Below, in pieces: positions 33,670-37,623 of a DNA stretch of 64,000 nt. A program made the position numbers and the translations under genes. This stretch comes from Spiroplasma melliferum. GTDB lineage: Bacteria; Bacillota_I; Bacilli_A; Mycoplasmatales; Mycoplasmataceae. Under the pieces are notes generated by a model, which saw only the letters and a list, made by a program, of their open reading frames with translations, made no database searches and was not told where the DNA came from. Each line of letters starts with the position of its first letter. Position 1 is the stretch's first letter. The DNA lies in NCBI GenBank assembly GCA_005222125.1, contig CP029202.1, positions 1 through 64,000 of the forward strand, read 5' to 3'.

Positions 33670-33704
33670 AAACCTTTATCTTTTCAAGATAAAGGTTTTT
33701 TTGA
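33670..33704 (+). terminator. intrinsic terminator after rpmE
   Basis: A perfect 13-bp stem is formed by AAACCTTTATCTT (33670-33682) and AAGATAAAGGTTT (33686-33698), with loop TTC and T-run. Confidence 0.9.
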
Positions 33705-33819: not shown

Positions 33820-35736
33820 ATGGGATTGAAAATTAATAATTTAAAGTATAAACGATATAAAAAAGTTATTTTTAATGATTTAAATTTTAGTGTTAATAGT
33901 CAAGAAGTTTTGGGGGCTCATTTTGAAAATAAGTTTTCACAACTATATTTTTTAAAATTGTTATTGGGAAAGAAAAAACCACGTAGTGGAAAGATTTATT
34001 TAAACAATAGGAATATTACAACTTTACTACCAAAAGAACGAAAAATTGGTTATGTGTCACCAGGACCATTAAGATTAGCTTTTTTACCAACAAAATTACG
34101 TCTTGCTTATCATATTTTAAAAACTCCAAAGTTTTTACATGATAGTTCATTAAAATATAACAAAAATAAATATTTTTATAAAAATTTAGTTTTTATCGGT
34201 AATGATTTGAATAAACAAGATTTAATATTAAAAACAGATAAAATTATTAATGAATATTTTACTAATTCAATTCATATTAAAGAAGAATGAATAGAGACTT
34301 ATTTAACTCAAATTAGTGAATTCCATAAAAAAGAAATTAGTAAAATTTTAGATGATGATAAAGATTCAATTTTAATTCAAAGTTTACATACTTATACATA
34401 CAAAAGAGAAGAAATTCGTGTATATGAAGGTTATCTTGCATTTTTACAAGCTTTATGAGATAAAATCTATTATATTTCTGACTTAGATTATTTGTGTGAT
34501 TGCTATGATATTGCTAAAAAAAGAAAACGTAAAGATAAAAGTTTTGGTTTTATTGGGGCAAAATTAGTTTGTGAAAAGTATTTAAAAATATTGCAGACTG
34601 AAATTACATATGAACGGTATCTATTAATTAAAGCACGAAAAGCATTAAAAAAATATCGTCTTAATGTTATAAAAAAGGATGGCAAACATAAGAGTGTTAT
34701 TAAAGGAATTTTAAATAAAAGTAATTCTACAAATATAATTACTTGAACAAAATTATCAGAAGATCAATGATTTAACTATAATCAAAAACAAGAACAATTA
34801 ATTGCAAATTTATTACCAGATGAAGCAACAATTATCAAAGGAAAAGTTTTAGAATATTTTCATAAATATCATTTAGAATTATTAAATAATACATTACAAA
34901 CTCAAGAAAAAGATAATTCACTTGCCATTGAAGAAGCAAATGAAAAAGTTGTGACAGTTTATAATCAAGCTTTTGAAGAAGTTAAAAAATTAATGAGTAG
35001 TTTAAATATTAAAATGAATTGATTTAAACTTACTAAAAACTTAAGTAGTTTTGATCATACTAAAATCAGATTAATTAATGCCATTTTAAGTAAGAAAGAA
35101 TTAATTATTTTACATAATACTTTTGACAATTTAACTCATAATGAAGCAAATGAATTAAATGAAATTTTACTTAGTTTAAAAAACTATAATCCGCAGTTAA
35201 CTTTTTTAGTTTTAACAAAGAATATTGAAAATATTAAAAATTATGTTACAAAATTATTATTTTTTGATAAGGATAATAATTACAAATTAATGTCAAAAAA
35301 TCATGCTGAATTTTTACCTAACACAATTAATTTATATCAAATAATGTATAATAGTTCAGAAAACATTTTTAGTATGAAATATTCTGCAGCAGAAAATGTT
35401 TTAGAAAATGAGCAAATTAAAATTAAATTACCTAAAGGAACTAAATTAATTGATCAAAAAGAATATTTTTTAGCAATTAATCCAAATTTAATTTCATTTC
35501 AGAAGACAAAAGAATTTAACAAAGACTTACATTTAGCATATAAAGGACATGTTAAGTCGATTAAAAAAGTTGTTAAATCAATTGTTTGTTTTTTTGAAGT
35601 TAATAATGATGTTATTTTTAAAATTTTAGTATCAGAAAAAGAACTAAATTTAAAAAAAACAACGACAATATATTTTGAAAAGAATGCATTATTAGTTTAT
35701 GATAAAGTTAACAGTAACTTAGTTGCTAACATATAA
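33820..35736 (+). CDS. PotA-like ABC protein with all catalytic motifs lost (predicted pseudo-ATPase)
   Basis: The 638-aa protein follows the outline of a PotA-type ABC ATPase: an N-terminal beta segment, GKIYLNNRNITTLLPKERKIGYVSP (PotA-like up to the Q-loop region), a helical insert of about 300 residues, then the signature and Walker B region and a C-terminal TOBE-like domain from about 500. The conserved residues are gone: GAHFENKFSQL replaces Walker A, SSFDHTKIRLI the signature, LIILHNTFDNLT Walker B and D-loop (DEP to HNT), and LTKN the switch His. ATP hydrolysis is not expected. A TATAAT at 33787-33792 and GGGAG serve it. No permease is adjacent. The frame is intact and codon use is normal, so a conserved non-catalytic role is likely. 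Confidence 0.7.
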
Positions 35737-35749
35737 GTGAGGAAAACAA

Positions 35750-36712
35750 ATGCAAGATTTAAAAGGGCTTATTTTACAAAAAATTAAAGATTATAAAACA
35801 ATTATTTGTTTACGCCATATTTCACCAGATGGTGATGCATATGGTTCAGCATTTGGATTAGCACAATTCATTAAAGATAATTTTCCAAATAAGAGAGTAT
35901 TAGTTGATGGTGCAACAAATGATTTTTTAGCTTTCTTAGCAACACCTGATCTTGTGCAAGTAGAAGATTATCAAGATGCATTAGTAATCGTAACTGATAC
36001 AGCGAACATTGAACGAATTGATAGTAAATATTGGCAGCAAGCAAAAGAAATTATTAAAATTGATCATCATCCTAATGTTACACCATTTGGTGATATACAA
36101 TGAATTGATGAAACTAAAATTGCGGTTTCAGAAATGATTGCTGAATTGGTTTTAACATCAAAATTAACGGTAACGCCAGAAGCAGCTAGATTAATTTTTA
36201 CTGGAATTGTAACAGATTCAAATCGTTTTATGTATAGTAAAACTTGCCAAAATACTTTTATGTTAGCAGGGCAATTAGTTGCTACAGGTTTTGATTTGCA
36301 ATCAATTTATCAGAATTTATATGAAGAATCATGAGTCAATGTGCGCTTTAAAAATTATTTGTTATCGCAAGTAGTTATTTATAATAAAGAAATTAGTTAT
36401 GTTAAGATAACTGATGAAATGTTAAAAGAGCATAAAATGAGTTATGAAACTGTTAAACCATGAGTCAATATTATGAGTAATATTAAAGAATTTAAAATTT
36501 GAATGTGAGCAATTGAAAATAAAGCAGAGGGTTATATAAATCTTAGCATTCGTAGTAATACTTATATTGTTAATAAGGTAGCAGAAAAGTATTGTGGTGG
36601 TGGTCATCAGTTAGCAAGCGGGGCGAAAATTTATCAGTGAGAAGATTTAGAACAAGTTTTAAAAGACTTAAGTTTTGTAATTAAAAATAACATTAAATAT
36701 ATGGGAGGTTAA
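35750..36712 (+). CDS. DHH/DHHA1 family phosphoesterase (NrnA-like)
   Basis: The 320-aa protein has the DHH-family motifs: SPDGDAYGSAFGL, an aspartate in IVTDTANI, IKIDHHPN, and a distal IVTDSNRFMYS. The C-terminal DHHA1 domain has YCGGGHQLASGAKI. Such enzymes degrade nanoRNA or pAp, and some cleave cyclic dinucleotides. Five or more Trp are TGA. GTGAGGA precedes ATG 35750. The stop is two bases before tdk. Confidence 0.9.
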
Positions 36713-36714
36713 GA

Positions 36715-37299
36715 ATGTATTTTTTAAATAGTAAAGCTCAAATAGGATGAATAGAAGTTATCACTGGTTGTATGTTTGCTGGAAAAACTGAGGAGTTTAT
36801 TCGTCGTTTAGTTCGCCTAAGTTATGCTAAATTTGAAATTCAAGTTTTTAAACCAACAATTGATAATCGTTATAGTGAAAACCAAGTTGTTAGTCATAGT
36901 AAAAAAGCAGTTGAAGCAATATCAGTTAAGGATTCTGATGAGTTATTAGCAAACCTTAAAACAACAACAAATGTTGTTGGGATTGATGAAGTACAATTTT
37001 TTGATAATAATATTGTTAAAATTGCTGATTCTTTGGCAGATAAAGGAATTATTGTTATTGTTAATGGTTTAGATAAAGATTTTCGAGGCGAAGCTTTTAC
37101 TAATATTGAGCAATTAATGACACGAGCAGAAGAGGTTAAAAAATTACATGCAATTTGTGTTAAATGTGGAAATTTAGCAAATAGAACACAACGTTTAATT
37201 AATGGGAAACCAGCTAATTATTATGATCCAATTGTTTTAATTGGTGAAAAGGATAAATATGAAGCTCGTTGTCGTCATTGTCATGAAGTAACATATTAA
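36715..37299 (+). CDS. tdk: thymidine kinase
   Basis: The 194-aa type II thymidine kinase has the P-loop GCMFAGKTEEF and Walker B-like VVGIDEVQFF. The lasso and zinc site follow (CVKCGNLANRTQR, then CRHC near the C-terminus). A single TGA Trp is at codon 12. GGGAGG upstream lies inside the preceding gene end. It salvages thymidine to dTMP, fitting with tmk elsewhere in the window. Confidence 0.95.
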
Positions 37300-37314: not shown

Positions 37315-37623
37315 ATGTTAACAAAAAATGGATTAAATGCTGAAGCTTATTTTGTTATAAATAATAAGCCAAAAAATGTAAAAAAAATTAAAGGTCATTT
37401 TGTTGAAAACTTGCCAATTAATTCTAAGATTATTATTTTAGAAGATTTATTAATTAAAGAAAATGACAATGTGATTGTTAATGGTAATGTTTTTAAAATT
37501 AGTCAAAAAATTATTAATAAACATCCCATTAAGAAAACATTTGAAAGTTGTGAATATCGATTAACTTTAGTTGACCAATTAAAAAATTTGCCAAAATTTC
37601 AAACATTAATTTCAAATCAATAA
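37315..37623 (+). CDS. conserved-looking small hypothetical protein (102 aa)
   Basis: No family is recognised. The protein is soluble, Lys/Asn-rich, with a predicted beta-rich core (SKIIILEDLLI, DNVIVNGNVFKI) that could be a small barrel or OB-like fold. One Cys near residue 82. TTAGGAGG precedes ATG 37315 and a terminator follows, so it looks like the last gene of an operon with nrnA-like and tdk. Confidence 0.7.
   Translation: MLTKNGLNAEAYFVINNKPKNVKKIKGHFVENLPINSKIIILEDLLIKENDNVIVNGNVFKISQKIINKHPIKKTFESCEYRLTLVDQLKNLPKFQTLISNQ

Follow-up and report, generated by a model that had tools for sequence, protein, structure and literature searches.

The nearest described counterpart of the gene studied here, gene X, is MMSYN1_0138 of JCVI-syn3.0 (Mycoplasma mycoides). 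A 2019 study already observed that this gene resembles an ABC ATP-binding region whose ATP site is not conserved (PMC6629657). In JCVI-syn3 the genes at this locus are rpmE (0137), 0138, nrnA (ytqI, 0139) and tdk (0140) (PMC6609329, PMC6629657), and this rpmE-0138-nrnA-tdk order is the same as that around X. From the published order and the pseudo-ABC description, rather than from a sequence comparison, we identify MMSYN1_0138 as the JCVI-syn3 member of the X family and treat it as an orthologue of X, which has both the rpmE-X-nrnA-tdk order and a pseudo-ABC sequence. In the main text of the paper describing 0138 we did not find the metal-site motif, the descent or the distribution reported below, the main texts of PMC6609329 and PMC6755753 make no mention of 0138 by name, and a literature search on JCVISYN3A_0138 found no paper.

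The second system for comparison is the group of long-insert UgpC/MalK-type ATPases of Mollicutes. In the M. hominis group, importers with such ATPases lie beside a surface nuclease, and import of nucleic-acid precursors has been proposed for them (PMC3585158). The genes MAG_5030-5070 of M. agalactiae have the same nuclease-importer operon layout and have also been interpreted as importing nucleic-acid precursors, and by this layout MAG_5050 is an example of a long-insert ATPase (PMC3585158). These ATPases have their layout, the place of their insert and homology over the whole chain, insert and TOBE tail included, in common with X. Unlike X, they have an intact Walker A, LSGGQ-type signature, Walker B, D-loop and switch His, they have permease and binding-protein genes alongside, and they have no CxC or HxYH motif. 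PotA of the PotABCD polyamine importer also has the combination of ABC and TOBE architecture in common with X. Zinc sites in an insert of an ABC ATPase are known from Rad50 and UvrA, which resemble X in carrying a cysteine pair within an insert that lies between Walker A and the signature but, unlike X, are active ATPases on DNA.

Gene X and its catalytic motifs

In the window, by which we mean the whole 64,000-nucleotide stretch of Spiroplasma melliferum DNA that was analyzed, gene X is an ATG-to-stop frame at exactly 33820-35736 on the + strand, as are the parts of X, the terminator and the rpmE, nrnA and tdk genes given below for the window. It encodes a 638-aa protein under genetic code 4, with 5 TGA codons read as Trp and no internal stop. 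Motif positions in this copy were assigned by alignment to seven intact long-insert paralogues. The chain begins with an ABC N-lobe remnant (residues 1-88, 33820-34083), which is recognized by a profile match to solved ABC N-lobes and by hhalign to the intact paralogues. An insert of ~310 aa follows between the Q-loop and the signature (34084-35013), with homology to the one found in long ABC ATPases of the UgpC type, and the chain ends with a TOBE-like tail (residues 501-638, 35320-35733), in which P555 stands at the position of the paralogues' TOBE-domain IRPE. The Walker A, LSGGQ and Walker B motifs are all absent. The dead Walker A position has FENKFSQLY where the paralogues have GPSGCGKST (residues 35-43, 33922-33948), the Q-loop Gln is replaced by Pro81 (34060-34062), the dead signature is LSSFD instead of LSGGQ (residues 408-412, 35041-35055), the dead Walker B is IILHNT instead of LLLDEP (residues 429-434, 35104-35121), the dead D-loop is DNLT instead of SNLD, with T439 in place of the Asp (35125-35136), and the switch His is replaced by Lys467 (35218-35220).

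The same motifs are lost throughout the family. Neither the Walker A pattern GxxGxGK[ST] nor the signature pattern SGG[Q-like] has a match in any of the 70 full-length orthologues. In aligned columns, where part of the counts depend on the alignment of a strongly diverged region, Walker A glycines 2 and 3, the second Gly and the Gln of the signature, the catalytic Glu, the D-loop Asp and the switch His are each found in 0/70 orthologues, the Walker A Lys in 12/70 and the Walker B Asp in 8/70. Residues of shape survive, namely the S of LSGGQ (47/70), the L of the D-loop (60/70) and the P of IRPE (61/70), which fits a fold that is retained and a chemistry that is gone. Based on these alignments, we consider it close to certain that gene X encodes a pseudo-ABC protein and no normal ATPase.

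A preliminary description of this DNA had claimed an intact open frame of 638 aa, an ABC-type arrangement that includes an insert and ends in a TOBE-like tail, joint loss of the catalytic motifs and, as a possibility, a non-hydrolysing role. The frame is as described, the layout is supported by, among others, the INPN of X, which stands where the intact paralogues have IRPE, the joint loss holds for the window copy and for the 70 full-length orthologues, and the non-hydrolysing role is supported. Orthologues with intact motifs, which would have pointed to recent decay of this copy, were looked for, and 0/70 full-length orthologues are intact. Absent from that description were the conserved residues D214, C226-x-C228 and H348-x-Y350-H351 and the fixed pairing with nrnA.

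X has an orthologue in 74/74 genomes of three related mollicute families, which we call f1 (60/60 genomes), f9 (5/5) and f11 (9/9); the f1 genomes include all 14 of the window's genus. The f9 and f11 orthologues come from a family-profile search, and 4 of the 9 in f11 are clear only with the insert profile. With the family and insert profiles, none was found in the remaining families of the order. Short "second copies" returned by the searches of the order were rejected as copies of X, because they are pieces of the intact 600-800-aa paralogues that matched in part only. Pairwise dN/dS of X in close relatives is about 0.07-0.14, with the C-lobe and the insert among the lowest. X is thus under purifying selection and not in recent decay. 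X is split by one frameshift each at L082 (genome G005) and L083 (genome G010), and the rest of the gene is well conserved in both; these frameshifts may be recent breakage or assembly errors.

Relationship to intact long-insert ATPases

The ABC ancestry of X is real, as judged from profile comparisons, yet beyond most single-sequence tools. X alone matches Pfam ABC_tran with an E of 0.004, below the cut-off, and its best NCBIfam match, WtpC (E 1.1e-12), is far below the cut-off of that model. When a profile of the X family was compared with solved ABC ATPases, the best match was EcfA2 (E 1.9e-11); ModC (3d31) matched with an E of 2.8e-9 in an alignment of C-lobe plus tail, and GlcV (1oxx) with an E of 0.015 at positions 398-625. 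A search with the insert reached intact paralogues of 600-800 aa, nearest to UgpC by NCBIfam, in which Walker A, signature, Walker B, D-loop and switch His are present and the insert is in the same place. The alignment by hhalign of the X family with these intact long-insert ATPases covers 605 columns, insert included (E 9.5e-19), and the insert alone aligns over 287 columns (E 2.9e-8, score 70.3). That this similarity is mere helical composition was rejected, because the score of 70.3 compares with at most 28.6 in the controls (column shuffles reached at most 18.0 and block shuffles at most 28.6, in 60 runs each, and reversed profiles scored 24.3 and 21.9). The N-lobe, C-lobe and TOBE tail are homologous to those of UgpC/MalK-type ABC proteins, and the ~300-aa insert between Q-loop and signature is homologous to that of the mollicute long-insert UgpC-type ATPases. 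The insert of X gave no convincing match in Pfam or PDB, and a search of PDB sequences with the insert profile brought up no relative. An AlphaFold2 model of X, made from only three close sequences, has a mean pLDDT of 31.5, too low for the model to be of use, and it is from sequence homology alone that we predict an ABC fold for X.

The intact long-insert ATPase was found (E 1e-90) in 21 genomes of f1, in 97 genomes of a further family, f7, and in 5 genomes of f9, and at full length in 0/14 genomes of the window's genus. Given that f7 has the intact form and no X, the insert is probably older than X. Descent of X from a long-insert UgpC-type ATPase, or from an ancestor shared with one, is well supported by these comparisons. 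The direction of change, from an intact ancestor to X, is one that we infer without a rooted tree of X and the intact forms, since X is too diverged to be placed safely in one. New here is the homology over the full length, insert included, to intact UgpC-type ABC ATPases of 600-800 aa with a ~300-aa insert.

In the preliminary description, the N-terminus of X was called PotA-like. Descent from PotA was rejected, as the closest intact relatives found are the UgpC/MalK-type ATPases with the same ~300-aa insert and an orthodox PotA is found elsewhere. The possibility of a separate, true PotABCD, also raised in that description, was borne out, as one lies elsewhere in the genome (about C3:131332-135985); its PotA (a 358-aa frame) is without the insert, unlike X, and has PotB and PotCD beside it, away from X. 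At G000:C3:526926-530652, in the window's genome, there are several partial ABC_tran matches in short frames near one another, possibly a broken ABC gene cluster.

A candidate metal site in the insert

The best-conserved residues of X, which are D214, C226, C228, Y350 and H351, are all within the insert. In the window, Asp214 is encoded at 34459-34461, C226-x-C228 at 34495-34503 and H348-x-Y350-H351 at 34861-34872, and the two latter motifs would supply candidate metal ligands. D214, C226, C228, H348 and H351 are invariant in 58/58 f1 sequences, which have a median pairwise identity of 27%, and the pattern D-x11-C-x-C is found in 70/70 full-length orthologues. H351 is kept in f1, f9 and f11, and H348 in f1 only. 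The X of f11 has C-x-C-x-C (CFCGC) and no H348, and the X of f9 has C-H/R-C-H-x-x-H (CHCHxxH) at the CxC pair and no H348. Reading from these extra His and Cys residues beside CxC, we think it probable that a fourth ligand is swapped between clades; D214, invariant in all three families, would be an alternative candidate for it. In the seven intact long-insert paralogues we found neither the CxC nor the HxYH motif.

With this invariant set of candidate ligands, we hold it to be rather probable that the Asp/Cys/Cys/His site of the insert binds a metal, with zinc as a first guess. Alternatively, the invariance of the Cys and His residues could be structural or reflect thiol chemistry. The invariant D-x11-C-x-C and the conserved YH motif in the insert, a likely metal site that is absent from the intact paralogues, are new here. 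Near residue 285, the window copy has three residues fewer than its genus relatives (NVIK---KDGK).

The conserved locus and the proposed role of X

Upstream of X, the conserved locus is flanked by rpmE (L31, 33314-33664), which is followed by a 13-pair intrinsic terminator (33670-33698). Downstream are nrnA (35750-36712), which encodes a DHH/DHHA1 oligoribonuclease/pAp phosphatase, and tdk (thymidine kinase, 36715-37299), the third gene of an X-nrnA-tdk block, followed by prfA and prmC. Given the terminator after rpmE, X probably opens its own transcription unit, together with nrnA and tdk; promoter-like matches were at chance level. The order rpmE-X-nrnA is found in 32/32 loci, with rpmE inverted in one, and tdk was recognized in 31 of these, with prfA and prmC following. 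The conserved order in the 32 loci includes no permease gene, and the permeases and binding protein expected of a long-insert UgpC-type locus are absent, the neighbors being rpmE, nrnA, tdk, prfA and prmC. Of 18 genomes sampled from families that lack X, 9 have prfA immediately after rpmE, so X and nrnA seem to be an added block. The L31 frame of the window (116 aa) has a Lys-rich C-terminal extension past the Pfam domain (residues 18-82), and a 102-aa ORF between tdk and prfA (37315-37623) was recognized at loci L027 and L028 and not in the other loci compared.

The intact long-insert ATPases are also often near NrnA-type genes, which is new here. In f1, an NrnA-type gene lies within 2.5 kb of the ATPase in 11/21 genomes (by coordinates) and is directly adjacent in four; in f7, at least 11 of the 42 genomes sampled have one within 10 kb; and in f9 this was seen in 0/5 genomes. 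Most f7 genomes and half of those of f1 have no NrnA gene near the ATPase. The chance expectation is only roughly set, at a few per cent per genome, and the genomes are related. The NrnAs linked to importers in f1 and f7 group in a single supported clade (98/96), with one very long f7 branch outside, and this clade is separate from the X-linked NrnAs of f1 (genera other than the window's) and f11; the X-linked NrnAs of the window's genus and of f9 have a weakly supported placement in the tree. Alternatively, the NrnA linkage might simply reflect a gene order passed on by descent, as the surrounding rpmE, prfA and prmC are likewise conserved. In one f7 importer, an SNase lipoprotein is encoded between the binding protein and the ATPase, as in the operon described for M. 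agalactiae MAG_5030-5070 (PMC3585158).

We propose that X is an ancient pseudo-ATPase, either a descendant of the long-insert UgpC-type ATPase found in mollicute importers or a relative of it through a common ancestor. Its ATP-binding and hydrolysis motifs would have been lost before f1, f9 and f11 split, and it would have kept the TOBE-like tail and the insert, whose Asp/Cys/Cys/His site probably binds metal. X, encoded with, and possibly bound to, the nanoRNase/pAp phosphatase NrnA, would then act as a scaffold or regulator that does not hydrolyse ATP and has a metal-stabilized insert, and the two would serve nucleotide or oligonucleotide salvage as part of an X-nrnA-tdk nucleotide-salvage block. 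Taken as a whole, this explanation has in our judgment about even prospects of being right. A scaffold or regulator seems most likely among the non-catalytic roles, and a physical or functional partnership of X with NrnA is put forward tentatively. More doubtful is a further step, in which a dead ATPase, once part of a nucleic-acid-precursor importer, turned into a metal-stabilized cytosolic scaffold of NrnA and the insert is an NrnA-docking module both in the importer and in the dead copy; if true, this would give a function to a minimal-cell gene and explain the odd insert of the mollicute UgpC-type ATPases.

A different reading would keep X at the membrane, as a non-catalytic NBD-like subunit that docks on a permease, of its own lost family or of another importer, and regulates or stabilizes it. 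UgpC-type descent and a retained TOBE-like tail are consistent with such a role, and asymmetric ABC transporters with one degenerate site exist, but X is without both Walker A and signature, so both composite ATP sites would be missing from a dimer that X formed with an intact NBD. In addition, no permease gene belongs to the conserved order at the 32 loci, and X remains in 14/14 genus genomes from which the full-length intact long-insert ATPase is absent. This absence also makes it unlikely that X is a partner of that ATPase, and docking on a permease in general appears unlikely to us.

We give still less weight to the idea that X is a neofunctionalized enzyme or metal-dependent protein, with an activity carried by the D/C/C/H site of the insert and the dead NBD as only a frame. 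The best-conserved residues do sit in the insert, which has no Pfam or PDB relative; however, a Cys/Cys/His site with probable ligand exchange is more in keeping with a metal in a structural than in a catalytic role, and there is no candidate for a substrate. Equally improbable is a translation-associated factor linked to the ribosome, L31 or release factor. Some ABC proteins do act on ribosomes, rpmE and prfA/prmC flank X in 32/32 loci and X is basic (pI about 9.5), but rpmE and prfA are also neighbors in families without X, so the order is no pointer to X, the terminator parts X from rpmE, and the intact long-insert paralogues are basic too (pI 8.4-9.5). By far the least probable explanation is that X is a pseudogene in decay or has lost its function recently. 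Every catalytic motif is gone and two genus members have a frameshift, but the motif loss is common to 70 full-length orthologues, the gene is present in 74/74 genomes with a dN/dS of about 0.07-0.14, and it is retained in a minimal genome. Recent decay was rejected on these grounds, and the shared motif loss, the dN/dS and the presence in every genome bear out the argument of the preliminary description against simple decay.

For the scaffold or regulator that we prefer, the combination of pseudo-ATPase, candidate metal site and NrnA-linked relatives makes gene X and 0138 testable, the expectations being no ATP binding, a bound metal and bound NrnA. These findings also suggest a use for the 300-aa insert of the mollicute UgpC-type ATPases. 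In genome G014, nrnA is apparently duplicated in tandem downstream of X (L061:6924-8855). Tandem NrnA-type DHH genes, in two or three copies, were also seen near long-insert importers of f7 (L183:6360-8313, L184:14990-17999, L190:14005-15932).
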